A stretch of DNA of 64,000 nt from an uncultured Paracoccaceae bacterium (GTDB taxonomy: Bacteria; Pseudomonadota; Alphaproteobacteria; Rhodobacterales; Rhodobacteraceae): the NCBI GenBank assembly GCA_947499715.1, contig CANMPL010000001.1, positions 186,001 through 250,000 on the forward strand, written 5' to 3'. Under the pieces are notes generated by a model, which made no database searches, was not told the origin of the DNA, and was given only the letters and a program-made list of their open reading frames with translations. Shown one piece after another: positions 44,330-64,000 of this stretch; positions within the stretch are counted from its first letter, which is position 1; each line of letters starts with the position of its first letter. Both the position numbers and the translations under genes were made by a program.

Positions 44330-44400
44330 GCCCTGCTTATTTAACCCCCCTGTCGGGAACACATAGAAAAGACCGACATTTCTAAAAGGAGAAGACCCCA

Positions 44401-44880: not shown

Positions 44881-44886
44881 TTGGCA

Positions 44887-44947: not shown

Positions 44948-45025
44948 GCACTCTGAACGGCATGACTTGCCCCGTCGCGGGCCGCGCGGTTCGCAGCGCC
45001 TCACCCGACCGACAAGGCTCAAGAC

Positions 45026-45610
45026 ATGAACGCCACCACATCAAGAACCCAAGACAAGACGATGGCCCCGCGGGACCGTCACCAGCTGTCCTTGATGCAC
45101 GTCTTCCGCGCCGCCCATGCCAGCCGTGATGCCGCCAAGGAACAGAAAAACCTTGTTGATGGCGACCGCGAATTGACCCAGCGCAGCAAAGAACGCCGCG
45201 CCGGCACCGACGAAGAAACCCTGCGCCAACACCTGAATCGTGACATGGCCAGCCTGATGAATACGGTCAATCTTGATGCGACGGTGTCGCTCGAAGACTA
45301 CCCATATCTGCGTAAATCCGTCGCCAACTTTGGCTTCGGTGACCTCAGCCAGCTGGCAGGCACCGTCGATGGCCCCTCCAAGATCGCCGAATTGATCCGC
45401 AAGACGCTTTTGGCGTTTGAACCGCGCCTGATCCCCGACACGCTCGAAGTCACGGCCTCCTCTGACAACGATGTCGCCGATGCGCGGATCACCTTTGATA
45501 TCTCGGCTGAAATGGCCGCCTCTCCGGCCGACATCCCGCTGAACTTTGTGGCAGAGGTCGACAATGGCGCGGGCAAGATCCAGATGACCAAACTGCGGGT
45601 GAAAACGTGA
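45026..45610 (+). CDS. tssE: T6SS baseplate protein TssE (gp25-like)
   Basis: A gp25-like baseplate wedge protein, 194 residues. The conserved core DTLRQHLNRD-like ETLRQHLNRDMASLMNTVNLDATVSLEDYPYLRKSVANFGFGDL and the gp25 domain ELIRKTLLAFEPRLIPDTLEV are visible. The N-terminal 40 residues are basic and variable. It overlaps the tssF GTG start by 4 bases. Confidence 0.95.
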   Translation: MNATTSRTQDKTMAPRDRHQLSLMHVFRAAHASRDAAKEQKNLVDGDRELTQRSKERRAGTDEETLRQHLNRDMASLMNTVNLDATVSLEDYPYLRKSVANFGFGDLSQLAGTVDGPSKIAELIRKTLLAFEPRLIPDTLEVTASSDNDVADARITFDISAEMAASPADIPLNFVAEVDNGAGKIQMTKLRVKT

Positions 45611-47544: not shown

Positions 47545-48542
47545 AAAAACCCGCCACCACCGACGCGCCAGAGCGCCCCGTTGATGGCCTTGGCTACCTG
47601 AACTTCCTGCGCGCGATTGAACAGCGCAGCACCGGCAAACCGCGTATCGGGTCCAATACCTCCCTGCGCCAAGAGGTGGTCAACATTGGGCAAGACCCGC
47701 TGATGGCCTTCCCGGTCAACGACTTCAACCGCCTGTTGGACGGCAAACGCAGCAACCCCGAGGTGCGCAACAACATCATCGGCTTCTTTGGCTCCAACGG
47801 CGCGCTGCCCTTGGACATCACAGAAGAGGTCTACCGCTGGGCACAATCGGGCGACATGGCCTTTGTCCGTTTCACCGATATCTTCGCGACCCGCTTTCAG
47901 CAGCTGTTTTTCCGCGCGTGGTCCGACAGCCGGGCAATCACACAGTTTGACCACCCCGAACAAGACCGCTTTGCGTCCTACGTAGGCGCAGTTCTGGGCA
48001 TCGGCACACCCGCCTTCCAAGGCCGCGACAGCCTTGATGACCTGAACAAACTGGCCCTCGCGCCGCTTGCACTTGGCCGGGTCAAAAGCCCGCGCAAATT
48101 GCAGCAGATGCTGGAAAAGGACCTGTCCGCCGATATCCACGTCGAAGAACACGTCCCTGTCTGGATCGCATTCGAAGATGACGCCCGCAATGCCCTTGGC
48201 ATGGCCGGTTCCTCGCTGGGGCGTGACATGTATCTGGGCGCCCGCGTGCAATCGGTCGAGGAAAAGATCGTCCTGCATATCCACACCGAAACACTCGCCG
48301 AATATCGCGCCTTTCTGCCCGGCGGCACCAGCCACGCCCGCCTGCATGACATCGTCAACTGGTATCTGGGTGCCGCCTACGAGGTGAACGTCTCGCTCAC
48401 CCTGCCCGCCGATCAGGTGCAGCCCGCAACAATCGGTGAAAGCGCGGAACTTGGCTGGATGGCCGTCATACCGCAGCGCGTGCCACCACCCGCAAACACA
48501 CCCGTTCAAGGGGCCACATATGCCTTGACGGAAGTCGCATAA
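47541..48542 (+). CDS. tssG: T6SS baseplate protein TssG
   Basis: A 333-residue partner of TssF. The ATG overlaps the tssF stop by 4 bases. Conserved text: LNFLRAIEQRSTGKPRIGSNTSLRQEVVNIGQDPLMAFP, GFFGSNGALPLDITEEV, FRAWSDSRAI and the C-terminal GTSHARLHDIVNWYLGAAYEVNVSLTL. A long antisense open frame over this gene is a codon-bias shadow. Confidence 0.96.
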   Translation: MKKPATTDAPERPVDGLGYLNFLRAIEQRSTGKPRIGSNTSLRQEVVNIGQDPLMAFPVNDFNRLLDGKRSNPEVRNNIIGFFGSNGALPLDITEEVYRWAQSGDMAFVRFTDIFATRFQQLFFRAWSDSRAITQFDHPEQDRFASYVGAVLGIGTPAFQGRDSLDDLNKLALAPLALGRVKSPRKLQQMLEKDLSADIHVEEHVPVWIAFEDDARNALGMAGSSLGRDMYLGARVQSVEEKIVLHIHTETLAEYRAFLPGGTSHARLHDIVNWYLGAAYEVNVSLTLPADQVQPATIGESAELGWMAVIPQRVPPPANTPVQGATYALTEVA

Positions 48543-48580
48543 CACTTTGATAATATATAAAATTTCCAAGGGGACGGAAA

Positions 48581-51361
48581 ATGGCTGAGATCAATATCGA
48601 AAAATATGCCGGTAAAATGAACCGCGCAGGCTACGACGCATTCCTCAAGGCGATGCGCCACGCCCGGTCCGAAAAGAACCGCAATATCGAAGTCGTCCAC
48701 TGGCTGTTTCACGTCGTCGCCAACAAAAACTGCGACGTCTCCGTCACACTCAACGCGCTCAGCCTTGACCGTGGTGTTGTGTTGAAAGAACTCGACGGCG
48801 CCATGTCCCGTCTGGACAAAAACGTCACCGAAAGTCCGGGCATTTCCGAAAACCTGTCGTCCACGCTGAACCACGCATGGACCTACGCGACCCTGTTCTT
48901 CGGAGAGGCGCAGATCAGGACCGGCCACGTCCTCTTGGCGATGCTCAACGACAAAAACCTCGCCCGCGAGGTCAGTCGCCTGTCCCCCATTCTGGGCGGG
49001 ATCTCCGTTGACCAGCTCGGCAAAGAAAGCCGCAGCCTGTGGAAGGAAAGCGAAGAAGAAGACATGCGCCCCATGGACGGCTCCGGCCTGTCCTCAGGTG
49101 GTGGCGAAGGGGCCGCCGGTGATCCTACGGCCTCTGCCTCAACCGCGCTTGGCCGCTTTTGCAAAGACATGACCGCCGCTGCGGGTGACACCGACAAGAT
49201 CGTGGGCCGCGATGACGAAATCCGCCAGATCGTCGATGTGTTGCTCCGCCGCCGTCAAAACAACCCAATCCTGACAGGCGAGGCCGGGGTCGGCAAAACC
49301 GCCGTCGTCGAAGGGTTTGCTCAGCGCCTCGCCGCCGGTGACGTCCCACCCAAGCTCAAAGGCACCAAGCTTTATGAGATGGACATCCAGGCGATGCAGG
49401 CCGGGGCCTCCATGAAGGGTGAATTCGAACAACGCCTGAAATCCCTCATCGACGAGGTGCAATCCTCCCCCATCCCGATCATCCTATTCATTGATGAGGC
49501 GCACACCCTGATCGGCGCAGGCGGCGCACAAGGCACCGGCGATGCCGCCAACCTGCTCAAACCCGCCCTCGCCCGTGGCACCCTGCGCACCATTGGTGCC
49601 ACCACGCAAAGCGAATACGCCAAGTATTTCGAAAAAGACCCCGCCCTGACCCGCCGCTTCCAGCCGGTGCAAGTTGACGAGCCCGATGTCGACCGCTGCT
49701 GCTACATGCTCCGCGGCATCCTCGACCCCATGGAAGCGCACCACAAGGTCCGCATCAGTGACGAGGCCATCGTCGCTGCCGTCAGCCTCTCGCACCGCTA
49801 TATCCCCGCGCGGCAACTGCCCGATAAGGCCGTCAGCCTGCTCGATACCGCCTGCGCCCGCGTTGCCGTCTCGCAATCGACCATCCCCGCGCGCATCGCC
49901 GACTTGAAAGAGGCCATCGTGTCATTGGACGTCGAAATGTCTTCCAAGACCGCGCAAAAGGACCTTGGCGAAGAGAACGAAGAACGTCTGGCAGAGGCCG
50001 CTTTGGAAAAGGCCGCCAAGGAAACCGAACTCGCTGAATATGAAGAGAAATACGCCGCCGAAAAGATCATCGTCGACCGTATCCTCGCCCTGCGCGCCGC
50101 TCTGATAGAGGCCGAAGGCGGCACCGATGAGATGGAAGAGGAAGAATCCCATCAGCCGGTCCAGCCGACAGACACAGAAGCAGACGCACCCGCCGAGGAC
50201 ACAGCGGAGGGCGAAAACGCCCCACCACCCCCAGCACCCGAGGTCAGTGAAAACATCCCCGCCGATCCCGACGCGATCCGCGCCGAAATGCTGGCCGAAA
50301 TGGCCAAGCTAGAGGCAGGCAACCCCGACGACCGCATGGTCTACAGCCACGTCGACGAACAGGCCGTCGCCTCCATCATCTCTGATTGGACCGGCATTCC
50401 CGCGGGCCGGATGATGGCCGATGAACTCGACCGCATCCTGAAACTCGCCGACCACCTCAAGGAACGCGTCGTGGGCCAAGACCACGGCCTCAAGATGATC
50501 GCCAAGCGGATCGAAACCAACCGCGCGGGCCTGTCGAACCCCAACAAACCCATCGGTGTCTTCATGCTCGCCGGCCCCTCTGGCGTCGGTAAGACCGAAA
50601 CCGCGATTGCCCTGGCAGAGGAACTTTACGGAGGTGAGCAAAACATCATCACCATCAACATGTCCGAGTTCCAGGAGGCGCACAGCGTCAGCCTCCTCAA
50701 AGGCGCGCCTCCGGGCTATGTCGGCTATGGCGAAGGCGGCCGCCTGACCGAAGCCGTGCGCCGCAAGCCCTACTCTGTTGTGCTGCTGGATGAGGTCGAA
50801 AAGGCCCACCCCGACATCCACGAGATGTTCTTTCAGGTCTTTGACAAGGGCATCATGGAAGACGGCTCTGGCCGCCCGATCAACTTCAAGAACTGCCTCA
50901 TCCTGCTGACATCCAACGTCGGCACCGACGTCATCATGGATGCCACCGATCAGGGCCGCAAAAACGATGAAATCGACTCCGAGGCGCTGGCCGAAACGCT
51001 CAAGCCCGCCACGCTTGACGTCTTTCCGCCCGCCCTGATGGGCCGCATCGTGACAATCCCCTACTTCCCGCTTTCGACAGAGGCGCTGCACGGTATCACC
51101 AACCTCAAGCTGAAGTCCGTCATCAAGCGCCTGAAAGAAGCACATGGCGCGCACATGACCTTTAACAAGGACGTGCTCGACCACATCGTTTCTCAGTGTC
51201 GCGACCCCGATTCAGGTGGCCGCATGATCGACAACATTATCACCAACTCCATCTTGCCGGATCTCTCGCGTCAGGTCCTTTCCAAGATGGTCGCCGGTGA
51301 AGAAATGCAAGCGGTCGAGGTCGTCCTCAAAGACGGCGAAATCGCTTACGAATTTAGTTAA
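48581..51361 (+). CDS. tssH: T6SS AAA+ ATPase ClpV (TssH)
   Basis: The hexameric unfoldase that disassembles the contracted TssBC sheath. 926 residues: Clp_N domain (residues about 10-150), AAA1 with Walker A GEAGVGKTAVVEG and Walker B ILFIDEAHTLIGAGG, a middle coiled coil, an unusual acidic/Pro-rich insertion (about residues 520-570), then AAA2 with GPSGVGKTETAIAL and VVLLDEVEKAHPD, and the Clp C-terminal domain. The start has AGGGGACGG upstream. Its stop is 10 bases before the putative effector gene. Confidence 0.97.
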   Translation: MAEINIEKYAGKMNRAGYDAFLKAMRHARSEKNRNIEVVHWLFHVVANKNCDVSVTLNALSLDRGVVLKELDGAMSRLDKNVTESPGISENLSSTLNHAWTYATLFFGEAQIRTGHVLLAMLNDKNLAREVSRLSPILGGISVDQLGKESRSLWKESEEEDMRPMDGSGLSSGGGEGAAGDPTASASTALGRFCKDMTAAAGDTDKIVGRDDEIRQIVDVLLRRRQNNPILTGEAGVGKTAVVEGFAQRLAAGDVPPKLKGTKLYEMDIQAMQAGASMKGEFEQRLKSLIDEVQSSPIPIILFIDEAHTLIGAGGAQGTGDAANLLKPALARGTLRTIGATTQSEYAKYFEKDPALTRRFQPVQVDEPDVDRCCYMLRGILDPMEAHHKVRISDEAIVAAVSLSHRYIPARQLPDKAVSLLDTACARVAVSQSTIPARIADLKEAIVSLDVEMSSKTAQKDLGEENEERLAEAALEKAAKETELAEYEEKYAAEKIIVDRILALRAALIEAEGGTDEMEEEESHQPVQPTDTEADAPAEDTAEGENAPPPPAPEVSENIPADPDAIRAEMLAEMAKLEAGNPDDRMVYSHVDEQAVASIISDWTGIPAGRMMADELDRILKLADHLKERVVGQDHGLKMIAKRIETNRAGLSNPNKPIGVFMLAGPSGVGKTETAIALAEELYGGEQNIITINMSEFQEAHSVSLLKGAPPGYVGYGEGGRLTEAVRRKPYSVVLLDEVEKAHPDIHEMFFQVFDKGIMEDGSGRPINFKNCLILLTSNVGTDVIMDATDQGRKNDEIDSEALAETLKPATLDVFPPALMGRIVTIPYFPLSTEALHGITNLKLKSVIKRLKEAHGAHMTFNKDVLDHIVSQCRDPDSGGRMIDNIITNSILPDLSRQVLSKMVAGEEMQAVEVVLKDGEIAYEFS

Positions 51362-52235: not shown

Positions 52236-54563
52236 TTATCCCGCCTCTTCCAACACCTGATCGATGACCTCTTTGTAGGCCTTCATTTCTGCCGTCATCA
52301 CCGGCCTTGGCGCCGCCACCGCCACGGCCGGGGCTGATCCCGCGCCGCGCATCTTGCGATCCGCCCAGGCCTTCAGGTCCGCCACGGTATAATTGCGCAG
52401 GAACGGGTTGGCATTGACCACACCCGATCCCATGACTGACAAAATCGTCTCACTATCGCCGCGTGACAGCACCGTATTGGCCCCACCCGGCCCAAGGAAG
52501 TGCGCCAGATACAACCGACCGGGAGAGATGCTATGCCCCCGTCCCGACAGATACCGCTCATTCTCGCGGGCCAGATTTGTCACCATCTCGCGGCTCAATG
52601 TCGGGTCAGTCCGTAGCGCCAACTGCTCCGCCCGGCTCATGGTGCGGGCCAGATCCGGGCGATAATCCCGCATCATCCGCAACCACGTGCTCTCGATGAA
52701 CTGTCCCAGACCCGTCGCCGTCGACAGCGGGTTCTTGGCATTGGCATTGCCCGCACTTTCGACCCGGATGATCTGGTTCACCAGGGCCTCAACCGCGCCA
52801 GACGCCGCCCCGCCACCAGACGCCACAACCGTGCCGCCTTGCGGATTGACGGTGAAAGGATCAACCGGCGTGCCATTCTGGCGAAACTCAAAGTGCAAAT
52901 GCGGGCCCGTGGATCGCCCCGTGGTACCAACATAGCCAATCACCTCGCCCTGCTGCACCGCACGACCCGCGCGCATCCCTTCGCCAAAGCGGCTCATGTG
53001 GGCATAGCGTGACTGCAAACCGCCCGCATGGTCGATATAGATCACATTGCCATAGCCGCCGCCGTCCCCCACAACGGCCAGCGTCCCCGCAAGGGCCGCG
53101 ACAATCGGCGTGCCCGTTGGCGCCGCCCAATCAACCCCGCCATGCAAGCGCACGGTCTTCAGGATTGGGTGGTGCCTTGGCCCGAACTTGCTCGTCAGCG
53201 TGCCTTGCACCGGCGTCGTGAACCCACCCTGTGACGCAGCCCCCGCGCGGCCACGGTCGCTAAAGCAACTGAACTTGCCCTCGTCGTCGGCGCTTACATA
53301 ACAAGGCATATTGCCAGATGGCCCTTCGATCCCGGCAAACAGGATCTGCCCCGGCCCACTGCCCGCCGGGCCGGGGGCAGGGGCATAAAGCACCGTCACC
53401 TCGTCGCCGGGGGCGGCGAAAGCATCCAGATCGTAGGACTGCGACATCATCACGATCATCTCGCCCACCAGCGTTGTCGGCACGCCTTTGCGGATCACCG
53501 CGCTATAGACCGCATCCAACAGGCGATAGTCCTGCTGCGGGGCGGCCAGATTTGCCGTAGGCGACGACAGGGCATAAAGGTCAACATCGACCCACGGATC
53601 GGCCGCCAGCTCAAAGCCCAGCGACCCGCGCCGCGCGGTGGAGTTGATGTAGCCCTGTGGCCCGTAAAGCGACAATTGCAAGGGCGCCAAGACGCCGCCG
53701 TCCTTTCTTGCGCGGATCGCCACAATAGACCCCGGCGCCATCTTTGCCGCCTCGGGGATGATCACCGCGATCTGTTCGCCCCATGATTTCGCCGCATCAG
53801 GGGCAAAGCCGTTGGTGGCCAACACATCGGTGATGCTGCGCTCTGTCACCATCCGCACCACGATGTCTTCGTAAAGCTGCCTGCGCTGCGCTTCGGGTCG
53901 CACAAAGGACACGCTTGTGGTGTTCTCGATCCGCGTCTCCACGTAGGTCGCGGGTGATGCATCCTCATCCCCCAGCGCGGTTCCCCAACTGTCGTCACTG
54001 TCTGCGGCGACCACCACCACATCAAGATCCGCCTCGGGCACCGGCACCTCGACCGCAGCAATCGCGGGCGCATTCAAAGACGCAGACCTTTGCGCCTGAA
54101 AGAACGCAAAATCCTCGCGACTGGATGGCAGGGCCGTGATCAACTGCCGCTCTTGCACGATCAACGGCTCTCGCACCAGCGCCAGACGGTCAGCCCTCGG
54201 GTTGCCAATCCGGCGCGCATCCAGCGTCATCGGCCCGGCAAGGCTAAGGCTGTCCTGCGCGCCGCCAGATTCGAACCGCAGGATCATCGGGTCGCCTGCA
54301 ATATCCACAAACGGGGTCGCCGCCCGCACCGGTGCGGCCACCTCTTCGGTTTCGACCTGAACGAACTGTCCTTCTGCGGCGTCGGCCTCTGCAATCACCG
54401 GATCCGCGTCACTGCCGCTGAACAGCCAGACCACCCCAAACCCCAGCAAGACCACGACAACTGCACCACCTGCGATCGCCGCAACCCGCTGCATCCGCCT
54501 TTGGGCGCGGCGCTTTCTGGCCTTGGCCTGTGATTTCTGGAATGCGGGATCGACCTCGATCAT
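52236..54563 (-). CDS. Membrane-anchored bifunctional peptidoglycan hydrolase: M23 endopeptidase plus lytic-transglycosylase domain
   Basis: 775 residues. A basic N-terminus and one TM (VAAIAGGAVVVVLLGFGVVWLFSG) tether it to the inner membrane with a large periplasmic part. Residues about 447-575 are an M23/LytM domain with all zinc ligands: H474 and D478 in RLHGGVDW, HLHF (His555, His557). Residues about 591-690 resemble a lytic-transglycosylase/lysozyme-like fold (IIRVESAGNANAKNPLSTATGLGQFIESTW, Glu602 the likely acid). The N-terminal 400 residues include a LysM-/OapA-like region. It should cut both glycan and peptide bonds. Beside a T6SS it could open the wall for the TssJLM trunk, as MltE does elsewhere, rather than be secreted. 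Confidence 0.82.
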   Translation of the reverse strand: MIEVDPAFQKSQAKARKRRAQRRMQRVAAIAGGAVVVVLLGFGVVWLFSGSDADPVIAEADAAEGQFVQVETEEVAAPVRAATPFVDIAGDPMILRFESGGAQDSLSLAGPMTLDARRIGNPRADRLALVREPLIVQERQLITALPSSREDFAFFQAQRSASLNAPAIAAVEVPVPEADLDVVVVAADSDDSWGTALGDEDASPATYVETRIENTTSVSFVRPEAQRRQLYEDIVVRMVTERSITDVLATNGFAPDAAKSWGEQIAVIIPEAAKMAPGSIVAIRARKDGGVLAPLQLSLYGPQGYINSTARRGSLGFELAADPWVDVDLYALSSPTANLAAPQQDYRLLDAVYSAVIRKGVPTTLVGEMIVMMSQSYDLDAFAAPGDEVTVLYAPAPGPAGSGPGQILFAGIEGPSGNMPCYVSADDEGKFSCFSDRGRAGAASQGGFTTPVQGTLTSKFGPRHHPILKTVRLHGGVDWAAPTGTPIVAALAGTLAVVGDGGGYGNVIYIDHAGGLQSRYAHMSRFGEGMRAGRAVQQGEVIGYVGTTGRSTGPHLHFEFRQNGTPVDPFTVNPQGGTVVASGGGAASGAVEALVNQIIRVESAGNANAKNPLSTATGLGQFIESTWLRMMRDYRPDLARTMSRAEQLALRTDPTLSREMVTNLARENERYLSGRGHSISPGRLYLAHFLGPGGANTVLSRGDSETILSVMGSGVVNANPFLRNYTVADLKAWADRKMRGAGSAPAVAVAAPRPVMTAEMKAYKEVIDQVLEEAG

Positions 54564-54572
54564 CGCGGCATC

Positions 54573-56246
54573 CTAGCGGAACACGCCCGTGCCGCCGGTG
54601 CTGTTCAACGTCCGCCGCGCCGGTGCTGCGGGCGCTGGTGCGGGTGCGGGCGCCGGCGTCGCCCGACGTGGCGCGGATTGCGTCGTGGTCTGGCGACGTG
54701 GCGCGGATTGCGTCGTCTGCCTTGGGGCAGGTGCCGCAATCACCTGATCAGGACAGCGCACATCATCTTTCACCAGGATCTGCCGCCATAAATCAATCGT
54801 GGCATCCTGCCCGGCAAACGTCCCGCCAAACTGCTCAAAATACAGCGCGACAGAGGCGCGCGACCCGCGACCCCAATCGCCATCAATCGCGGCGTAATAG
54901 CAATTCATCCGCTTCATCTCTGTCTGGATCGCCGCGGCCAATTGCGCCTGCGGCGGGTCAAAGGCACCGGTTTCGATCAGGCTCAGATATAGCTCTCTGT
55001 TGTTCTCGGCAAAATCCCGGCGCAGCGCCACGTCAGAGGCGCTGATCTCTGATCCGCCAACCGCTGCACCATCATCCTCTGCGGCCACGTCAAAGCTCGC
55101 TTCGACCTCTTGTTCAGGGTAGCCCACGATGATCGACGGCAGCGGCAGACCACCTGCCCCCGGCACCGGGCGCGGCGTGTTTGACACCGGCTGCGGGGCC
55201 ACCGTCAGGATTGATACATCGCCCTGCACCTGTGCGACGCCCGCTGCAGCCACCGAAACGGGCGACACCGCATTGGCGACACTGACCGGGCGCACCGGTT
55301 CAATCAGCACCACGGTTTCTTCGGTCACGGTGCCAACCTGCGCGGGTGCCGCGCCAACCTCTCCGGCGAAATCCACGGCGATCCCCGCCTCTTCCCACAT
55401 CGCCAGCAATTGCGCGCGGGCAGACGGAGAGACGCTTTCAAGCATCTCATAATCTTTCTGGGTCAACGCCACTTCGCTCGTGGCGCGGCGGAACACGAAT
55501 GGCTCTGCCAATGTCGATGCCGCCCATAGCCCCGTGTCGGGGGTCACAACCTCTGTCCCGTCTTCAGCCACTTCGACCACTGGCGCTTCGGCTGGCGGCA
55601 GCAACTCGGTCGAGGGCAGACCCGGCACCGTCAGACGTTCCAGCAGCACCGATGTCAGCCCCTCACCCGGTTCAACCGGGCAGGCCACTCCGGGCGGCAC
55701 TGTGCTGAACAGCGCCAGATCCGGGGTTACCGCAGCCACATCCGCCAAGGACACATCAAGCGCCCCGGCACCGATAATCCCTTGCGATGCCCCACCGTGG
55801 CAGGTGTCCAGCATCACGACCCGCTCGCCTTCGCGGCCCAGCAGATCGACCACCTGCACGGATGCCGCTGCAAGTTCCTGCGGGGTCTCGCCCACCGCCG
55901 CGACCGGCTGCACATAGCTGACACCGTCGACGGCAAATCCGTGACCTGCATAATACACCACCGCCGGTCCGTCCTTGCCCGCCAAATCAGCCAAGGCCGC
56001 CTCGATCGCGGCCTTTTCGGCGTTCTCAAGCCGGGTCACGGTGAACCCCAAACCAAACAGCGCCTCTGACAACTTTTCAGTGTCGCGCCGCAGCCCGCCC
56101 AAGGCCGCATTCCCGGCATAGCTGGTATTGGCAATCACCAGGGCCGGCCGCTCTTGCGCTGTGGCTTGGCTGGCACCCAGACACAGCGCGGCCGCCCCGC
56201 AAAAGCGGGCAAATCCGGTCAGCATTGTCGGCACCAGTCTTTTCAT
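54573..56246 (-). CDS. Exported caspase-like (metacaspase) protease
   Basis: 557 residues from ATG 56246 (GGAAGG upstream), starting with a clear signal peptide (to about ATAQE). The caspase-like domain has VVYYAGHG (His102) and VVMLDTCHGG (Cys149), the metacaspase catalytic dyad. After a variable Val/Pro-rich middle (about residues 250-430) comes a tail (MNCYYAAIDGDWGRGSRASVALYF) like a peptidoglycan-binding/YkuD-type fold region, and a Thr/Pro/Ala low-complexity end. It is leftward, 9 bases before the M23/LT gene, probably one operon. A periplasmic metacaspase in a T6SS locus is unusual; it may process envelope or effector proteins. Confidence 0.8.
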   Translation of the reverse strand: MKRLVPTMLTGFARFCGAAALCLGASQATAQERPALVIANTSYAGNAALGGLRRDTEKLSEALFGLGFTVTRLENAEKAAIEAALADLAGKDGPAVVYYAGHGFAVDGVSYVQPVAAVGETPQELAAASVQVVDLLGREGERVVMLDTCHGGASQGIIGAGALDVSLADVAAVTPDLALFSTVPPGVACPVEPGEGLTSVLLERLTVPGLPSTELLPPAEAPVVEVAEDGTEVVTPDTGLWAASTLAEPFVFRRATSEVALTQKDYEMLESVSPSARAQLLAMWEEAGIAVDFAGEVGAAPAQVGTVTEETVVLIEPVRPVSVANAVSPVSVAAAGVAQVQGDVSILTVAPQPVSNTPRPVPGAGGLPLPSIIVGYPEQEVEASFDVAAEDDGAAVGGSEISASDVALRRDFAENNRELYLSLIETGAFDPPQAQLAAAIQTEMKRMNCYYAAIDGDWGRGSRASVALYFEQFGGTFAGQDATIDLWRQILVKDDVRCPDQVIAAPAPRQTTQSAPRRQTTTQSAPRRATPAPAPAPAPAAPARRTLNSTGGTGVFR

Positions 56247-56290
56247 CAAGAACCTTCCATCCTCAGGATACCGCACCAAACCCGTTCAAG

Positions 56291-56701
56291 CTAGGGTTGC
56301 GGCGTCAAAAACAACGTCCAGCGTTCGGTCTGCTGCGTGTCCACTTCGATAAAGTTCGCAGGCAAATGCCCCCGGATCAAACAATCGTCCACGCCGCGAA
56401 TGACAAACCTTGCTGTGCCGATGCACATCGGCGTGCTGCCATTCATCACCTCATTGCCAAAAACATCTTGCGCAAAGACGTAAATATACCGTGCCGTCAG
56501 GCTTTCCTTGATCGCATTGGCACATTGATTGGGGCCAATTGTCCACCATCCGCGGGTGACAAATGTGTCATCCTCAAATTGCCCAATGGCGACGTTCACG
56601 ACGTCAAAAGATTGATTACACACGGCAAATGCGGCCTTCGCGGTGCCCGGCAGGACACCGAGAACCATCGCAGTCAGGGCGGAAAGGGCAAATCGGCACA
56701 T
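56291..56701 (-). CDS. DUF1036 family secreted protein
   Basis: 136 residues from ATG 56701, with a signal peptide (MCRFALSALTAMVLGVLPGTAKA). The mature part fits DUF1036: AFAVCNQSFDVVNVAIG, RGWWTIGPNQCANAI, YIYVFAQDVFG, PMCIGT, FVIRGVDDCLIRG. Conserved cysteines probably form disulfides in the periplasm. Function unknown for the family, which is common in alphaproteobacteria. It precedes the caspase gene by 44 bases in the leftward unit. Confidence 0.85.
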   Translation of the reverse strand: MCRFALSALTAMVLGVLPGTAKAAFAVCNQSFDVVNVAIGQFEDDTFVTRGWWTIGPNQCANAIKESLTARYIYVFAQDVFGNEVMNGSTPMCIGTARFVIRGVDDCLIRGHLPANFIEVDTQQTERWTLFLTPQP

Positions 56702-56838
56702 GCGACATTGATACAACGCATCTTTAGGAATGCGAAAGCAAACTCCACCAAAGTGGGGCAAGCTTTGCGCAGAGGCCGGATTTATGGCATATCGGGCGCA
56801 TTGCTGGGGGAAGACTGATTTAGATAAGGAATTTCCGC

Positions 56839-57135: not shown

Positions 57136-57226
57136 CCTTCAATCGCGCGTCAAACCCCGATAATCATGGACAAAGCGTCGATGGGTCTAATACCATTGCT
57201 GCACACAAACTTTGTCCGGGGAAGCT

Positions 57227-57670
57227 ATGTCATTTCTGAAATCACTGAACCGCGCTGCCGTCCTTGCTGGGTCGCTCGCACTTCTGGCCGTGCCTGCCGC
57301 CGCACAGGACGCCGCTGAATTCTCGCTCGAGCTGAATAACGCCGCAGAAACCACCGCAGGTGGCTGCCGACTGACCTATGTCGCGACCAACAAGACCGGA
57401 CAGGAACTGGCCCAGACCGCCTACGAGGTGGCCGTGTTCAACTCTGACGGCGTTGTCAGCCGGATCCTGGTGCTGGAATTTGGCGCGCTGACCATCGGCA
57501 AAACCAAGGTCGTGCAGTTCGACCTGTCCGATCAGCCCTGCACCGGCCTAAGCCGGATCGTGGTGAATGACGTCGCCGCCTGCACATTGGCCGATGGCTC
57601 TGGCGAAGGCGATTTCTGCCTTTCGGGGCTTGTGACGGCCTCGCGATCCACTATCCAGTTCGGTATCTGA
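57227..57670 (+). CDS. Secreted four-cysteine protein, unknown function
   Basis: 147 residues from ATG 57227 (GGGGAAG upstream; TTG at 57212 is in frame but less likely). Signal peptide MSFLKSLNRAAVLAGSLALLAVPAAAQ. The mature domain looks like an Ig-like beta sandwich (CRLTYVATNKTGQELAQTAYEVAVFN, TKVVQFDLSDQPCTG) with four Cys, probably two disulfides. Not assigned to a family. Just upstream of the exbB-like gene but separated by a terminator at 57678-57700. Confidence 0.72.
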   Translation: MSFLKSLNRAAVLAGSLALLAVPAAAQDAAEFSLELNNAAETTAGGCRLTYVATNKTGQELAQTAYEVAVFNSDGVVSRILVLEFGALTIGKTKVVQFDLSDQPCTGLSRIVVNDVAACTLADGSGEGDFCLSGLVTASRSTIQFGI

Positions 57671-57724: not shown

Positions 57725-58366
57725 ATGAACGCTCCTGATCTCTCGGCCTTGAACACGTCCACCCTCGCCGTGTTTGCGGCCCTTGCCATCATGTCTCTGC
57801 TGGCCGTCACGGTCGCCTTCTTCAAGATCTTCCAATTCGCCCGCATGGGCGTGGGCCGTGGCCGCGCTGCCGAAGACATCCTCGAAGACTGGCTGGGTGG
57901 CCGTGCTGACGCCGCCCTGTCCCGTGCCGCCGAACGTCGCTTTGTCTTGGCCCGTGTGCTGCAATCGGTCTTCTCTGGCCTGCGCGCCCGCCCCGACAAT
58001 TCCGAATTCGCAGAAGAGCTGGGCCGACAAACTGCATTGGTCGAACTTGGCAACATGACCAGCCGGATGCGCGTGCTGGAAACCGTGGTGCAAGCCGCCC
58101 CGATCCTTGGCCTGCTGGGCACAGTGATCGGGATGATCGATGCCTTTTCGACCCTCGCCAGCGCTGACGGCGCAGTGGATCCGACGCAACTTGCCGGTGG
58201 TATCTGGACCGCTTTGACCACCACCGCCGCTGGCCTTGCCATCGCGCTGATCACCTACTTCATCGCAACTTGGCTTGAAGGCCGGATTGAAACCGAACGT
58301 CAATCGATCGAGACGCTGATCTCTGCCGCGATCCATGGGCGCGTTGACGCCAACACGCCGCAATAG
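57725..58366 (+). CDS. MotA/TolQ/ExbB proton-channel family protein
   Basis: A 213-residue three-TM protein. TM1 (TLAVFAALAIMSLLAVTVAFFKIFQFA), a cytoplasmic loop, then TM2 (LETVVQAAPILGLLGTVIGMIDAF) and TM3 (GIWTALTTTAAGLAIALITYFIATW) carry the ExbB/TolQ signatures. The ExbB pentamer forms a proton-driven rotor/stator with an ExbD dimer. It is part of exbB-exbD-exbD'-tonB-like, 3 bases from the first exbD gene, inside a T6SS locus rather than at an iron-uptake or tol-pal locus. Confidence 0.92.
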   Translation: MNAPDLSALNTSTLAVFAALAIMSLLAVTVAFFKIFQFARMGVGRGRAAEDILEDWLGGRADAALSRAAERRFVLARVLQSVFSGLRARPDNSEFAEELGRQTALVELGNMTSRMRVLETVVQAAPILGLLGTVIGMIDAFSTLASADGAVDPTQLAGGIWTALTTTAAGLAIALITYFIATWLEGRIETERQSIETLISAAIHGRVDANTPQ

Positions 58367-58369: not shown

Positions 58370-58822
58370 ATGTCCAAGGCCCGATCAAAGGTCGCTCTGC
58401 CCCGGCACACCGGGCGCTATAACATCACGTTGACCCCTCTGGCCGACGCGATGTTTCAGCTTTTGATCTTTTTCATGCTGTCCTCCAACCTCGCGCCCTA
58501 TTCCCTGCTGACCATCCGCACCGGGCTGACCGGCGAAGAAGGGGCGCAATCCTCAGGCCAGGACATCCCCGACCAGATCGCCGAGGCCCCGCCAAACGCC
58601 GCCATCTGGACCGTTGACGCCGGTCAGGTCACAGCCCAAGGCCAGCGGTTTGAACCCAGCCAGCTTTCGGCGCTCGCCATGGCCCTTGCTGCCAATGATG
58701 ACGCCGCCGTCGTGCTGATCCTGCGCGAGACCGCGCAAGTGCAGGATCTCTCGAACGTGCTAGAGGCACTGACCGCCGCCGGTGTCGTCTCTGTCCAAAT
58801 CGCTGAAAGCGGGGGCGCATAG
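58370..58822 (+). CDS. ExbD/TolR family protein with the conserved TM aspartate
   Basis: 150 residues: short N-terminus, one TM and a periplasmic domain. The TM motif TPLADAMFQLLIFFM aligns with E. coli ExbD VTPFIDVMLVLLIIFM, so the Asp is in the position of the proton-carrying Asp25. The periplasmic domain (AAIWTVDAGQVTAQGQRFEPSQLSALAMALA) is the usual ExbD/TolR fold. Immediately followed by a second ExbD-like gene with no gap. Confidence 0.9.
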   Translation: MSKARSKVALPRHTGRYNITLTPLADAMFQLLIFFMLSSNLAPYSLLTIRTGLTGEEGAQSSGQDIPDQIAEAPPNAAIWTVDAGQVTAQGQRFEPSQLSALAMALAANDDAAVVLILRETAQVQDLSNVLEALTAAGVVSVQIAESGGA

Positions 58823-59227
58823 ATGCAGGCTCTTCCCCGCCCCAAAAAGCCGATCCAACTTGATGTCTCGCTTGCCATCGTCAACATCGTGCTTCTGCTG
58901 ATCTTCTTCTTCCTTGCCACCGGGCAGCTGATGAACCCGCCTGCGCAAGGCGTTGATCTGGCCGAAACCACGGACCTGCCGCTTGACCAGCTCCCCTCTC
59001 CGATCCTTGTGGTCGACCCCGCGGGCAACTGGGAATTGGACGGCCAGCCGCTTGCGCCCGACCTTTTGGGCGTCAGCATCGCGGACCTGCCGCAGCCACT
59101 GACCCTGCACATCCTCATTTCGGGCGACGCCCCCGCCGGCACATTGCTTGAGATTGTGAACAGGCCGGAACTGACCGATATCAACATGAAACTGGTCACC
59201 CTGCGCGTGCCGGGTGAAGACGCATGA
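58823..59227 (+). CDS. ExbD-like protein lacking the proton-carrying aspartate
   Basis: 134 residues with one TM (LAIVNIVLLLIFFFLATGQLM) and an ExbD-like periplasmic domain. Aligning its LLIFF with the upstream paralogue puts Val where the paralogue has the essential Asp (Asn one place on), so it probably cannot carry protons. It may form an asymmetric heterodimer with the intact ExbD inside the ExbB ring, or be a structural variant. ATG follows directly after the upstream stop, and its own end overlaps the TonB-like start. Confidence 0.82.
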   Translation: MQALPRPKKPIQLDVSLAIVNIVLLLIFFFLATGQLMNPPAQGVDLAETTDLPLDQLPSPILVVDPAGNWELDGQPLAPDLLGVSIADLPQPLTLHILISGDAPAGTLLEIVNRPELTDINMKLVTLRVPGEDA

Positions 59228-60564
59228 CCGGGCGTGGCGGCAAACCAATCCACTGGGTCGAGGCGTTTGGCCTGTCTGCACTGGTGCACGTGGGCCTTGT
59301 GTTCTTTGCACTGGATTTCGTGAACGACCTACAGCTTTTCTCGGAATCCGAGGATGAAGCCACCGTCGATATCATCGTCACCAGCCTGCAATTCGACAAT
59401 ATCACCATCGAACAACCGTCGGATACCACCGGGGCCGAGGGCGACGTTGGCGAAGGCCTTGAAACACCGCCCGACGCGCCAGAAAGCCTGCCCGCCCTCG
59501 CGCCGGAACCCGCGCCAGAGCCAGAGCCGGAACCCGCCGTCGAACCTGACGAACCCGAAGAACTCGTCGCCGAAACGCCCGATGCGGTCGAACCAGAGGC
59601 GCTGACACCCGAACCCGTGGAACCAGAGGCGCTGACCCCCGAACCCGTTCAGCCAGAACGCGCCGATGCGCCAGAGGCGCTGCAACCGGTTGAGGCTGAA
59701 CCAACTGCCCTTGCCCCCGAACCCCTTAGCCCGCTGCGCCCCGATGATGATACGATCGCCGCCCTTGCCCCGATCGACGGCGGCGCGCCCGAACGGCTTT
59801 CAGCCGCCGCGCCTTCGATTGCACCTGTCGCCGTTGCCCCGGCGACCGCTGGCACAACGACCCGCATCGCACCCGTCTCAACCCGGCCACAACTGACACC
59901 GCCCGCGCCGCGCCGCCCCGCCGTGGAACCCCCCGCGCCCGGCAGCCCGCAGGCCGTCGTGAACGAACTGGTCGCCAAGATCCGCGCCAATACCTCTGAC
60001 GCCTGCCTTGTCGCGATGCCGCAGCAAGGGGCAGATGGCGCACCGGAACTTGTGATGCTGGCCGCCGATGAACCCAGCATTACAACCTTCGCCGCTGATG
60101 TCTTGTCAGAGATTGAACCCCGCCCTTCCCAGCGCGGCGTGCTGATTGATCCGCGCCAATGCGCCGCGGCCACCTTCATCCGCGAAAACACCAGCTATCC
60201 CGCCTTCCGCCTTTCGCTTGGCGTGGTCGAGGATCGCTTGCCGTCCGGCGAAGAACTCACCGGCGTCGTTGGCCGCGCGGCGGGTGCTTATGTGACGCTT
60301 TTGCTGGTGGATGATAACGGCGTGGTGCAGGACATTGGCAACTACCTGACCTTCGCCGGGGCCGACGCCCGTTTTGCGGCACCGATGCGACGGGAAGGGG
60401 CCGCGCGCGACACATCCCAGATGTTGATCGCCTTGGCCACCGACGCCCGCCCCCGCACCCTTGATACGCAGAACGGTCAATTGGCCGAAGACTTCTTTCC
60501 TGCCCTCAAGGCCGAGATTGGGACCAATATCCCGCTGGTCATGATCCCGTTTGAAGTGCGTTAA
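59224..60564 (+). CDS. TonB-like transducer with a novel C-terminal domain shared with the T6SS kinase
   Basis: 446 residues. The N-terminal TM (WVEAFGLSALVHVGLVFFAL) has the SxxxH motif of TonB (Ser18, His22) that engages ExbB/ExbD. A Glu/Pro-rich periplasmic stalk (about residues 80-250; includes a 30-base tandem repeat at 59591-59650) follows. Residues 254-446 (bases 59983-60564) are not a recognisable TonB C-terminal domain, but resemble the extracytoplasmic end of the kinase at 60656-63283: ACxxA (Cys261), RPxxxxxIxPxxCAA (Cys313, 52 residues on), QMLIALATDA, AEDFFPALKAEI. Probably the energised partner of a sensor. ATGA overlap with the upstream gene. Confidence 0.78.
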   Translation: MTGRGGKPIHWVEAFGLSALVHVGLVFFALDFVNDLQLFSESEDEATVDIIVTSLQFDNITIEQPSDTTGAEGDVGEGLETPPDAPESLPALAPEPAPEPEPEPAVEPDEPEELVAETPDAVEPEALTPEPVEPEALTPEPVQPERADAPEALQPVEAEPTALAPEPLSPLRPDDDTIAALAPIDGGAPERLSAAAPSIAPVAVAPATAGTTTRIAPVSTRPQLTPPAPRRPAVEPPAPGSPQAVVNELVAKIRANTSDACLVAMPQQGADGAPELVMLAADEPSITTFAADVLSEIEPRPSQRGVLIDPRQCAAATFIRENTSYPAFRLSLGVVEDRLPSGEELTGVVGRAAGAYVTLLLVDDNGVVQDIGNYLTFAGADARFAAPMRREGAARDTSQMLIALATDARPRTLDTQNGQLAEDFFPALKAEIGTNIPLVMIPFEVR

Positions 60565-60655
60565 CCCGACCGTACGGTTAACGCGGCTTAAAACTCTCAT
60601 GCATATGGTATGTGGCCACTATGTGCATGGGTTGTGCATGGTTTGTGCATACCCC
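60558..60655. repeat. Stem-loop and helically phased repeats between convergent genes
   Basis: GCGTTAACC (60558-60566) and GGTTAACGC (60576-60584) form a perfect 9-base stem overlapping the TonB-like stop codon. Further on, three direct repeats of TGTGCATGG start at 60622, 60633 and 60644 (the third is TGTGCAT only), exactly 11 bases apart, one DNA turn. They could be a protein-binding array or a remnant of duplication. Confidence 0.55.
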
Positions 60656-63283
60656 TTATGGCAGCAAATCGAACACCGCGATGGCCGCGCCCGCACGCCC
60701 ATCCGTTCCGGCGATCTCCGCCTCAATCAGGGGCAGCAAATCTGACGCGCGCGCGCCATTGTTCGCCGCTGCCGCCGCGATCAGAGGTGCGTCAGACGCC
60801 ACGGCCATGATCATCTGCGGCTGCGCCTCACCGCTGCCATCGCTGTTCAGGCCAAAGCTGAACGTGGCACTGCCGTCAGCACCTTCGGTCATCCGATCCG
60901 TCAGGTTATAAACCCCGCCAGCGGCCGTGATCAGCACCAGCCAGACAGGGCGACCGCGACGGTCGCTCAACCGGCCAACGATGGATCCACCGCTTTGCAT
61001 CTCATTGGAATCCAAGACCAAAATGGGTGCGGCCCCACCGGTTTGTTGCATCGTCCGGCCCAAATCGAGCGCGGCACAATGGCTGTCGGGGATGATTTTG
61101 GTGCTGATGTTTGGACGGCTGTCAAAGGCATCCTCGAACGCATCCGCCAAGCCATCAAAAGCCCCTTGGGAGTTGCTGAACGTCGCCACCACCCCGGCCT
61201 CTGGACCGGTCGCAATCCGCGTCGCATAGGTGCAGGCACCCGCGTCATAGTTGGCAAGGAAACTTGCCCGCGTCATCGGCCCCGATGGGGTCGAGGTCAC
61301 AGGATCCTCGATCGTCTCACTGCCGCCCGCATCTGCTTGCCGCAGTCCGTCTGGCAACATTTCATCTGGGATAAGTCCTTGTTGCCACGCAACAAATCCA
61401 CCCAAACCCGCAATCACCAACAGGATCAAAAGCCATCGTCCAACACCGCCGCCGCCGTCACTGTTGCGGCGTCTTGGGCTGGTGCCTGCCATCGTGTTCT
61501 GGCCCGGCGCAAAGGTGCCCGGCGCCGCTGTCACACCCGGTGCAAACGTCCCCGGTGCCACCCCGGTTGGCGCGCCAAAGGGGCTGGCCGAGGTTGCATC
61601 TGCCGCGGCTGGCACAAGGCTTGGGGCAACCCCTTGGGTTTGCCCTGAATGGGTCGGCGGTTGCTGCAATCCCGGCGTTGCAATCCCCGACGTGACCTGT
61701 CCCGCAGGCGGTCGGGTTTGCCCATCGGCGACAGGTCGTGCGCCACCGTATTTGGCAGGAATATCAGCAGGATGGTCAAGCAATCGGATCACATCCAGCA
61801 TCCGCGCAGGCCGGTGAATCGGATCCGGTTCCAGCATATGCGCCAGCAGCGGCCGCAGCCCATCCGGCACGTCGCTGAGGTCCGGGATTTCGCGTCGGGC
61901 GTTCACGGCCTCAACCACGGATGAACCCATGTCCAACGGCTCTCCGCGCAGGCCTGCGGCCATCAGCAGACCAAGGCCATAAATATCGGTGCGGGGCCCA
62001 ATCTCTCCGCCGAAGTGACCAAGTTGTTCGGGCGATATATATTTGAATTTACCGGCCAATTGACCGTGCAGCGTGTTTTCTGCCATCTCGGTCGACTTTG
62101 CGATACCAAAGTCAATTAGCACCGCCTCTGACACCTTTCCGTCGCGCAGCATCACGTTATCAGGCGACAGATCGCGGTGGACCACATCCATCTGGTGGGC
62201 ACGGTCCAGACCACGGGCCACGCGGCGCAAAAGGCCGCGCGCTTCGTCTTCGGTCAGGGGGCGTTCATCCCGGACGAAATCCGAAAGGGACACGCCGTCG
62301 ATGAACTCCATAATCAGGCAGAACCGATCAAGCGCTGCGTCTTTCACAAAGTTGAAATAACGCACGATGGCGTTGTCAGACAGGCCGCAAAGCACCTTGG
62401 CTTCGCGCATGAAAAGGGCCGCGATCTTGCTGTCATTGGCCAGCGATTGCAGCACGATCTTGATCGCCACCGCATCGCCGGTAAAGGCGTTCACACCGCG
62501 AAAGACCTCGCCCATACCGCCAGCGCTGATCAGTTCTTTGATCTCGTAGTTGTTGTTGATCATCGTGCCAACGGGCACGGCATCCTTGGGCGGAGAGGGC
62601 TCATCTATCGGCGCGTCCGACAGATCGTCGGGCGGCGGTGCGATGGAGGGTTCTTTTGCCGCTTCAATGGGTTCCGGCGGCAGTGAAGGCGCTGGTTCTT
62701 CCGCGTCCGGGGTGTCTTCTTCGGTCGTGTCGATCTCTTCCGGTGTGGCGATGCCAACTGCTGCGGCAGCCACAGCCTCCACCACCGGAGGAGAGGCGAT
62801 CCCGCTGGTTGCAGCCATCGGGGCCTCTGTCACGGGCGGCGTCGCAATGCCGCTGTCGCCATCCGCGGGGGTTTCGGTCACGGGGGGAGTCGCGATGCCA
62901 CTGTCACCTTCGGCAGGGGCCTCTGCCTTTGGTGGGGACGAGATGCCCGTTTCGCTATCTTCGGGCGGGGTCGTCACAGGCGGTGTTGAGAGACCTGCAA
63001 CAGGGGTGTCTTCGGGATCTTCCGGCAAAGCCTCGGCCGTGGGCGGGGCCACTGCGGGCGGGACATCATCATCGGTGGCGATCTGCGTGCGATCTTCGTC
63101 CACAGCCGGGGACTGGATCGGTTCGATCACGGTGCGATCTTCATCCGCCGAAGCAGGCGGCACGGCAGCACTGGAAATGACGGTGCGGTCAACATCTTCT
63201 GCGGGGGAGTCGACCGCAAAGATATCATCCTCTTCGCCCTGTGGCGGGATGGTCTTGTCAGGATCTGGCGTATCGTTTTGCAT
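60656..63283 (-). CDS. T6SS-linked Ser/Thr protein kinase (PpkA-like) with extracytoplasmic sensor domain
   Basis: 875 residues from ATG 63283 (AGGGGG upstream). Residues 1-75 hold four threonine motifs (Thr11, 34, 51, 66), three of the form D-R-T-[VQ]-I. Residues 96-182 are six 16-residue repeats containing G-[IL]-[AS]-[TS]-P. The Hanks kinase domain begins near residue 243: glycine loop AGGMGEVF, Lys275 (VAIK), Asp371 (HRDLSPDN, Ser where Lys is usual) and DFG at 391. A long Pro/Gly linker precedes one TM (about 615-635). Residues 676-875 are the shared domain with Cys684 and Cys736. It likely phosphorylates TagH to switch the T6SS on. Confidence 0.93.
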   Translation of the reverse strand: MQNDTPDPDKTIPPQGEEDDIFAVDSPAEDVDRTVISSAAVPPASADEDRTVIEPIQSPAVDEDRTQIATDDDVPPAVAPPTAEALPEDPEDTPVAGLSTPPVTTPPEDSETGISSPPKAEAPAEGDSGIATPPVTETPADGDSGIATPPVTEAPMAATSGIASPPVVEAVAAAAVGIATPEEIDTTEEDTPDAEEPAPSLPPEPIEAAKEPSIAPPPDDLSDAPIDEPSPPKDAVPVGTMINNNYEIKELISAGGMGEVFRGVNAFTGDAVAIKIVLQSLANDSKIAALFMREAKVLCGLSDNAIVRYFNFVKDAALDRFCLIMEFIDGVSLSDFVRDERPLTEDEARGLLRRVARGLDRAHQMDVVHRDLSPDNVMLRDGKVSEAVLIDFGIAKSTEMAENTLHGQLAGKFKYISPEQLGHFGGEIGPRTDIYGLGLLMAAGLRGEPLDMGSSVVEAVNARREIPDLSDVPDGLRPLLAHMLEPDPIHRPARMLDVIRLLDHPADIPAKYGGARPVADGQTRPPAGQVTSGIATPGLQQPPTHSGQTQGVAPSLVPAAADATSASPFGAPTGVAPGTFAPGVTAAPGTFAPGQNTMAGTSPRRRNSDGGGGVGRWLLILLVIAGLGGFVAWQQGLIPDEMLPDGLRQADAGGSETIEDPVTSTPSGPMTRASFLANYDAGACTYATRIATGPEAGVVATFSNSQGAFDGLADAFEDAFDSRPNISTKIIPDSHCAALDLGRTMQQTGGAAPILVLDSNEMQSGGSIVGRLSDRRGRPVWLVLITAAGGVYNLTDRMTEGADGSATFSFGLNSDGSGEAQPQMIMAVASDAPLIAAAAANNGARASDLLPLIEAEIAGTDGRAGAAIAVFDLLP

Positions 63284-63294
63284 CACGCGACCCC

Positions 63295-64000
63295 CTAGAA
63301 GAACGGCTCTGGCGGCAGGCATCGCACCACCACCGCCGTGACGTTATCTTTGGCCCCGCGATCAAGGGTCTGGGCAATCAAATCGTTGCAAATCGACTGC
63401 GCCGTTTCCCCCCGCTGAAGGGCGGCGACGATATCGGCATCGCTGTTATGTTCCGTCAGCCCGTCAGAGCACAAAAGCAACATGTCGCCCTGTCGGATCT
63501 CACCGCTGACAACGTCGCAATTGGGTTCCTCTGACACGCCAATCGCGCGGGTGATGACGTTCTTGCGTGGCCAATTTTCGGCCTCTTCTTCGCCGATCAT
63601 ACCGGCATCGAGCAGTTCCTGCACTTCGGTATGGTCGCGGGTCAGCTGTTCAAGCGATCCGTTGCGCATCCGGTAGATCCGACTGTCCCCGGACCAGATG
63701 CAAGCATAGCTTTCTTCGTAGACCAAAAGCGCCACCAGCGTCGCGCCAACAGTGCCGCCGCCCAGCGAAATCGCATGTTCGCCAATCTTGTGATGCGCCC
63801 GGCCAAGCCGTTCCATAAAGCGGGCTTGCAGATCCCCGGCTGAGATTGAAAAGCCGACCGTCTCCATCTCTCCGGTGATGGTTTGGCTGGCGAAATCGCC
63901 CGCGTCATGGCCGCCCATGCCATCCGCCACGACCCAGACGCCGGATTCAGGGCGCACGAAATAGCTATCTTCGTTGTGGTCACGGACGCGGCCCGTGTCT
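63295..64000 (-). CDS. PP2C-type protein phosphatase (PppA-like, 5' end off the window)
   Basis: Antagonist of the T6SS kinase; dephosphorylates the FHA protein in studied systems. The frame reads on to the window edge, so the internal GTG at 63957 is not the start. Metal-binding motifs: DTGRVRDHNEDSY, VVADGMGGHDAGD, WSGDSRIYR, LCSDGLTEHNSDADI, KDNVTAVVV. Its stop is 11 bases before the kinase ATG, so phosphatase and kinase are one leftward unit, with phosphatase first. More T6SS genes (tssJKLM) may lie further upstream, outside. Confidence 0.95.
   Translation of the reverse strand, partial: DTGRVRDHNEDSYFVRPESGVWVVADGMGGHDAGDFASQTITGEMETVGFSISAGDLQARFMERLGRAHHKIGEHAISLGGGTVGATLVALLVYEESYACIWSGDSRIYRMRNGSLEQLTRDHTEVQELLDAGMIGEEEAENWPRKNVITRAIGVSEEPNCDVVSGEIRQGDMLLLCSDGLTEHNSDADIVAALQRGETAQSICNDLIAQTLDRGAKDNVTAVVVRCLPPEPFF

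Follow-up and report, generated by a model that had tools for sequence, protein, structure and literature searches.

In a type VI secretion system (T6SS) locus of an uncultured Paracoccaceae bacterium, a TonB-like protein and a transmembrane Ser/Thr kinase terminate in homologous periplasmic domains. The locus lies in a stretch of 64,000 nucleotides, hereafter “the window” (contig CANMPL010000001.1 of assembly GCA_947499715.1, positions 186,001 to 250,000), whose numbering is used throughout unless a locus handle is given. Homology of the two domains, their like predicted folds, the pairing of their bearers from genome to genome, the link to T6SS and the recurrence of the arrangement in a second T6SS type form the basis for the reading developed here: a transducer powered by the proton-motive force (PMF) would act on the T6SS kinase by way of paired periplasmic domains. 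We judge this reading about as likely as not; the docking, the interaction and the direction of control are what we infer. The comparison covers 80 relatives of the TonB-like protein, found in 78 genome-contig loci (presumably all from Rhodobacterales, judging from the record titles) and on 2 plasmids; with the window's own locus (L111) they make 81 loci. The genes and domains in question are the following:

57212..57670, plus strand: prot3, a small protein with a signal-peptide-like N-terminus and without Pfam family, in 76 of 81 loci
57725..58366, plus strand: ExbB-like proton-channel protein (Pfam MotA_ExbB, 9.6e-27), in 80 of 81 loci
58370..58822, plus strand: ExbD1, transmembrane Asp (D26) present (Pfam ExbD, 2.5e-14)
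58823..59227, plus strand: ExbD2, with Asn (N21, codon 58883-58885) for the transmembrane Asp (Pfam ExbD, 2.4e-5; 24.8 bits, cut-off 25.4)
59224..60564, plus strand: TonB-like protein of 446 amino acids, with an N-terminal transmembrane segment, a Pro-rich linker and a two-lobed C-terminal domain
59953..60561, plus strand: periplasmic domain shared with the kinase, as carried by the TonB-like protein, with Cys codons at 60004-60006 and 60160-60162
60656..63322, minus strand: transmembrane Ser/Thr kinase (PpkA-like), 888 amino acids from the first ATG
60659..61291, minus strand: periplasmic domain shared with the TonB-like protein, as carried by the kinase, with Cys codons at 61232-61234 and 61076-61078
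63295..63999, minus strand: PP2C phosphatase (PppA-like; Pfam PP2C, 1.7e-12), its start outside the window

The gene for prot3 opens the plus-strand cluster prot3-exbB-exbD1-exbD2-tonB-like, and the kinase and PP2C genes converge on exbB-exbD1-exbD2-tonB-like from the minus strand.

Two Copies of One Periplasmic Domain

A preliminary description of the window, made from its letters alone, had proposed that the C-terminus of the TonB-like protein and the tail of the kinase align with each other. Both reading frames lie where it placed them: residues 254–446 of the TonB-like protein are encoded at 59983-60561, and the final 200 residues of the kinase at 60659-61258. The alignment is borne out by pairwise, shuffle and profile tests alike. 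Direct comparison of the window pair gives an E-value of 5e-6 with blastp and a domain E-value of 8e-11 with phmmer in a one-target search, and their local alignment score of 105 exceeds the highest (64) among 2000 shuffles of the kinase tail. In the family alignment the two share 41 identical residues over 203 aligned positions. Profile-to-profile comparison by hhalign (65 TonB-like against 49 kinase domains) gives a probability of 99.6 and an E-value of 5.2e-25 over 196 columns; as had been suggested as a check, a profile built from one domain finds the other. When the whole source genome is searched, exactly two proteins match, the TonB-like protein and the kinase, and iterated searches over the 81 loci converge on an identical set of 135 proteins from either starting sequence. 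The homology of the two C-terminal domains is thus confirmed.

Each of 184 domain rows from four alignments has exactly two Cys, and in a joint four-group alignment both fall in the same columns in 86 of 86 rows, so that one conserved disulfide is probable. The spacing of 52 residues first noted for this pair holds in both proteins. Its positions hold as given in the TonB-like protein (261 and 313), but those in the kinase become 697 and 749 when counted from the first ATG, the 684 and 736 first given fitting a start at Met14. The proposed motifs fared unevenly. ACxxA, RP..I....CAA, QM[LI][IM]A[LV]A[TS]DA and the [AS][ED]x[FL]P...AEI block line up between the two proteins, but the “VGR” blocks are shifted, the Pro of I-x-P-x2-C occurs in the TonB-like protein only, and the terminal Ile is off by one.

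AlphaFold2 models computed separately for the TonB-like domain (65 sequences) and the kinase domain (49 sequences) reach mean predicted local distance difference test scores of 95.5 and 95.4. They agree in the order of their secondary-structure elements, again a check named beforehand: helix-strand-strand-helix-strand-helix, then an immunoglobulin (Ig)-like sandwich, two helices and a final strand. Ig-like matches from fold comparison fall in the same part of both models, which support the same predicted fold for the two domains. When the N-terminal lobe was checked for a BON fold, both models showed the order H-E-E-H-E-H. Ig-like structures matching the other lobe took up the whole fold-comparison list, and BON profile matches came only from the second-type relatives described below; the window's N-terminal lobe is putatively BON-like.

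The Putative Transducer, its Motor and the Kinase

In TonB-type proteins, an SxxxH motif provides the coupling to ExbB. The preliminary description was right that the TonB-like protein retains it: the transmembrane segment at residues 11–29 (59254-59310) holds S18-x3-H22. Among the TonB-like proteins compared, the His is in the transmembrane window in 79 of 80 and [ST]x3H in 60 of 80; L052, whose N-terminus is missing, and the truncated minus-strand tail of L054 do not enter this count. The C-terminal domain of TonB itself binds the TonB box of receptors. Its absence here, also predicted, was verified: the window's protein matches no Pfam or NCBIfam family at E-values up to 1, hence the name “TonB-like” rather than TonB.

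ExbB, ExbD1 and ExbD2 are each found in 80 of the 81 loci, the exception (L052) starting inside the TonB-like gene. Thr133, Thr166 and Thr167 of ExbB are conserved in 80 of 80, as is the transmembrane Asp of ExbD1. In a joint alignment of the two ExbD proteins, ExbD2 has at that position Asn in 78 of 80, Ser in one and a gap in one. The membrane Asp of ExbD and TolR carries protons; the window's type would thus combine one protonatable with one non-protonatable ExbD.

The kinase has its catalytic domain at residues 259–506 (61805-62548), with AIK, HRD and DFG motifs intact, and one transmembrane segment at residues 625–643 (61394-61450), beyond which lies the C-terminal tail. It thereby shows the features of PpkA: a Hanks kinase with catalytic motifs, a single transmembrane segment, a C-terminal tail, an adjoining PP2C gene and a tie to T6SS. 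Of the 25 kinase loci that were read at a distance from the TonB-like gene, 24 show PP2C.

Pairing of the Two Proteins Across Genomes

How faithfully do the two proteins accompany each other? A domain-bearing kinase occurs in the same genome or record as 77 of the 80 TonB-like relatives. For 52 it lies inside the fetched stretch (the window's own locus not counted). Searching the genome or record of the remaining 28 revealed a second domain protein in 26 and none in 2. Twenty-five of these 26 distant copies were read and are kinases, two of them (G466 and G472) split across several open reading frames (ORFs); the last (L054) is a tail truncated by a contig end. The two records without a kinase (G486 and G487) correspond, by their identical contig coordinates, to the assemblies G147 and G166, which are 73 and 71% complete. 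A TonB-like gene routinely found without a kinase, named at the outset as the case that would speak against the proposal, did not emerge from these genomes. Culturable members with both genes include Tritonibacter mobilis and a Leisingera strain (loci L058 and L060).

The same question was put to samples of 295 genomes of the family (partly overlapping the 80 loci), 244 of the order (which overlaps the family sample) and 289 of the class. In the family sample, the domain is found in 25 genomes. The TonB-like protein occurs in 19, together with the kinase in 17, the exceptions being the same two incomplete assemblies; in all 17 the kinase is confirmed by a kinase-domain match (in G056 by way of the identical locus L198). 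One more, G004, has the kinase and an endopeptidase fusion described below. The kinase form stands alone in five genomes (G121, G131, G247, G273 and G028), with kinase and tail on two ORFs in G273; in G028 a contig end interrupts the tail, which is of the kinase type. In the order sample, 32 genomes have the domain, and all but one of them have exactly two copies of it. Reading showed a kinase in 27 of these 31 (24 directly and 3 by identical coordinates), the pairs in G328, G351, G458 and G462 lying outside those read. Only the window's genome and G294 are positive in the class sample.

The pairing persists even when the two genes are far apart, by 138 kb in G149 and by more than 1 Mb in G298, G300, G369 and G394. 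In G392, the genome of the order sample with a single copy (L211:2536-5298), prot3 directly adjoins the kinase; the intervening exbB-exbD1-exbD2-tonB-like genes are absent, so that the motor part seems to have been lost naturally. The TonB-like protein is thus hardly ever without the kinase and the kinase is sometimes alone, an asymmetry that fits a TonB-like protein acting on the kinase.

The Link to Type VI Secretion

The tie to T6SS suggested by the window holds genome-wide. Of the 25 genomes in the family sample that have the domain, 24 also have VipB, against 72 of all 295 (Fisher p 1.4e-15), and the exception, G028, is an 86% complete assembly in which an FHA gene follows the kinase-type tail. 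VipB was also searched in 23 of the 78 contig-locus genomes, chosen for few or no T6SS genes at the locus, and was found in 22; the exception, G480, shows an FHA gene.

Such a link might also mean that the module mainly energizes effector export, outer-membrane passage or T6SS assembly, in the place of TssJ, and that the kinase only senses completed assembly. When 18 genomes covering both T6SS types were searched for TssJ (PF12790), none gave a match that passed the cut-off, though 6 had weak sub-threshold matches, and a protein of 2,083 amino acids, signal-like and without Pfam family, adjoins tssK. TssJ may, however, be too divergent for the model. Moreover, in G026 (L222/L223) and G175 (L224/L225) the module is a unit of its own, laid out as PP2C-kinase/TonB-like-ExbD2-ExbD1-ExbB-prot3/caspase/OmpA, with T6SS elsewhere. 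Such standalone modules suit structural work poorly, and we consider this explanation very unlikely. An OmpA-family gene in these surroundings matches the TssL model.

A Second T6SS Type with the Same Arrangement

A search with DUF4384 led to TonB-like proteins adjoining another T6SS type. Eight such loci were read. Each of them has prot3, exbB and exbD1 ahead of the TonB-like gene; five have a recognizable exbD2, and seven a caspase gene. In this second type, ExbD2 has Asp in all five sequences compared; ExbD1 has it in six of eight rows, and the remaining two rows do not include the segment. A profile from one second-type tip (inclusion 1e-6) reported two kinases, with E-values of 1.6e-6 and 7.1e-6, and the combined profile then consisted of 10 rows, 2 of them kinases. 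It is positive in 43 of the 295 family genomes, 31 having two copies and 12 having one. Every one of the 31 genomes with two copies has a kinase as one of them, and the other copy, read in 30, is without a kinase domain. Compared profile to profile, TonB-like and kinase tips of the second type match at 4.6e-16. VipB is present in 43 of 43, and the two versions of the domain together account for 64 genomes, 63 of which belong to the 72 that have VipB. Two further matches came from 157 genomes of the class; the one read, in G540, is a kinase.

Relation to BON_like and DUF4384

At E-values up to 1, second-type TonB-like tips match DUF4384 (30 of 30) and BON_like (23 of 30), and second-type kinase tips do so in 28 and 3 of 40, respectively. 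For the window's version, neither DUF4384 (PF14326) nor BON_like (PF21923) was listed in 21 TonB-like or 49 kinase members, DUF4384 not even at E-values up to 10. Across types, window-type kinase tips match second-type kinase tips at 2.5e-5, and a mixed profile matches the latter at 5.2e-5; mixed against mixed gives 0.0011, and mixed against TonB-like tips 0.027. The comparisons with TonB-like rows give 0.15 (TonB-like against TonB-like), 0.11 (TonB-like against kinase) and 0.093 (kinase against TonB-like). As for decoys, the best of 40 column-shuffles reaches 0.027 and the best of 19 other families 0.025 with the mixed profile; when the query is the second-type kinase profile, DUF1036 scores best among the 19 families, at 0.0047. 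On these profile scores the window's domain may be taken as a remote homologue of the BON-like plus DUF4384 unit, and hence as a divergent unit of that kind. The domain had initially been called undescribed: it is invisible to Pfam, but it would be a remote relative of a unit that Pfam recognizes.

Mean identity between TonB-like and kinase domains is 20 and 21% within the two types. Across types it is 16% for TonB-like against TonB-like and 14% for kinase against kinase, with 32% for ExbB and 25% for prot3. A TonB-like tip is thus closer to the kinase of its own type than to the tip of the other type. The tree agrees with this, but the approximately unbiased test does not reject the alternatives.

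Could this be a generic BON-like/DUF4384 unit, shuffled among unrelated envelope proteins and implying no functional tie between kinase and TonB-like protein? DUF4384 does turn up elsewhere in the family: a search of 61 genomes gave 19 matches, spread over 14 genomes, and one of the matching proteins, in L256, also has a caspase-domain match. The second-type unit is carried by a kinase in another family of the class, that of G540. However, one-to-one pairing across genomes at a distance, the restriction of the window's version to exactly two proteins in nearly every positive genome of the order sample (31/32), and the recurrence of the arrangement in two T6SS types all argue against this explanation, which is in our view very unlikely.

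The Surrounding Locus

The T6SS locus extends from 39368 to past 63999, the envelope block coming after the core genes. Besides those given above, its features are:

39368..51361, plus strand: FHA protein, ImpA/TssA, VipA/TssB, VipB/TssC, Hcp, gp25/TssE, TssF, TssG and TssH, the T6SS core
52236..54563, minus strand: M23 peptidase with SLT domain and a hydrophobic N-terminal stretch (Pfam 2.7e-32 and 8.2e-5), in 52 of 81 loci
54573..56279, minus strand: caspase-domain (C14) protein (Pfam 3.9e-15), in 42 of 81 loci
56291..56761, minus strand: DUF1036 protein (Pfam 1.5e-33), in 61 of 81 loci

TssH was assigned from hidden Markov model matches to the annotated TssH of L003 and L004. Past the window's end, the cluster adds TagF, TssM, TssL (with an OmpA domain) and TssK. 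The 2,083-amino-acid protein with a signal-like N-terminus is encoded just outside the window, beside tssK (L221:7505-13753); a hypothetical gene of similar size adjoins tssK in L003 (1868-8215) and is possibly its homologue. After tssH, at 51372-52178, lies an alpha/beta-hydrolase-like protein (Abhydrolase_3 at 0.0016, below the cut-off). It has relatives in 6 of 81 loci and may be an effector.

How the Transducer Might Act on the Kinase

Going by their families, ExbB together with ExbD1 and ExbD2 would form a proton-driven stator in the inner membrane, on which the TonB-like protein would dock through its transmembrane His. The Pro-rich linker would carry this protein across the periplasm to its two-lobed end, made up of an alpha/beta, probably BON-like lobe and an Ig-like, DUF4384-like lobe, with one conserved Cys pair. 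There the two domains would meet, either as direct homotypic partners or at one common envelope site, and the energized TonB-like protein could set the dimerization state of the kinase, and hence its activity. Kinase and PP2C phosphatase would in turn control phosphorylation of the FHA protein and assembly of the T6SS. Loss of PMF or of envelope integrity would in this way reach the kinase through the TonB-like protein.

Several observations weigh against such a mechanism. The kinase form is present without a TonB-like gene in genomes at least 97% complete (G121, G131, G247, G004 and G392), so the kinase does not need the TonB-like protein everywhere. Likewise, 12 of the 43 second-type genomes have one copy, and the 9 that were read are all kinases. 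G004 encodes a fusion of the domain with a penicillin-insensitive murein endopeptidase (L212:6432-8489; Pfam M74, 2.4e-95); the kinase is present there, and no TonB-like copy was found in the genome. Nine of the 72 VipB genomes have neither version of the domain. In G026 and G175 the module lies away from the T6SS cluster, the roughly 12–18 kb read on each flank containing no core gene of the system, and both genomes also have a second-type kinase. Finally, a homologous domain can imply a common ligand instead of contact.

This last point leads to another explanation, in which the TonB-like protein does mechanical work on the T6SS membrane complex, on peptidoglycan or on the outer membrane, and the kinase monitors the same site, each through the same binding domain but without any contact between the two. 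The neighbouring genes encode envelope enzymes (M23/SLT and the caspase fold), with OmpA-family proteins in two loci scanned, and the murein endopeptidase fusion and the kinases found without a TonB-like gene point the same way, as does, with regard to outer-membrane attachment, the lack of TssJ matches above the cut-off. Independent readers of one site, however, need no one-way dependence, yet TonB-like proteins are without a kinase only in the two assemblies of 71–73% completeness, even when the genes are unlinked; and the excess of within-type over cross-type similarity goes beyond what a common ligand requires. We regard independent reading of one site as rather unlikely.

The reading in which the transducer acts on the kinase can be carried further, if tentatively. 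A stator with a single protonatable ExbD might move the TonB-like arm, whose tip would be a duplicate of the kinase's periplasmic domain, membrane energization would then be turned into phosphorylation and would gate T6SS firing, and the tip would be kept matched to, or be recopied from, the kinase of each type. By way of example, PMF collapse upon attack could free the kinase. We hold this extended version to be a possible one, though doubtful as a whole.

Known Systems and Outlook

The kinase side of the system is like the PpkA/PppA/Fha pathway of Pseudomonas aeruginosa, Serratia marcescens, Agrobacterium tumefaciens and Acidovorax citrulli, in which a transmembrane Hanks kinase, a PP2C phosphatase and an FHA protein are likewise encoded in the T6SS locus, and in which the periplasmic tail of the kinase receives the input. 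According to the passages of the papers cited here, PpkA receives periplasmic input from TagQRST, RtkS and TssW (PMC6082577, PMC12607579): RtkS binds the periplasmic domain of PpkA (PMC6082577), its own signal being still unknown in these papers, and TssW is an outer-membrane protein that binds PpkA (PMC12607579). Since these inputs act from the periplasm, a periplasmic input to the window's kinase is to be expected. None of the three is described, in those same passages, as an ExbB/ExbD/TonB-like transducer or as a homologue of the kinase's periplasmic domain.

The transducer side resembles TonB-ExbB-ExbD and TolA-TolQ-TolR in its ExbB-family channel, its ExbD-family partners, its single N-terminal transmembrane segment with (S)xxxH and its long Pro-rich linker. 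It differs from them in the BON-like/DUF4384-like C-terminus shared with a kinase, in its T6SS setting and in having two ExbD paralogues, one with Asn for Asp. Among the papers listed by searches in an open-access library, none described a PMF-driven kinase input that bears a copy of the kinase's own domain.

The way in which the kinase is activated from the periplasmic side varies among T6SS phosphorylation pathways. The genomes compared here suggest a physical input, membrane energy, and probable contact through homologous domains on the kinase and its transducer. If this is true, a TonB-type machine would be signalling rather than importing, and would do so for two T6SS types within one large family. 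The shared domain and the near-constant pairing suggest that membrane energy has a part in deciding when these bacteria use their T6SS.

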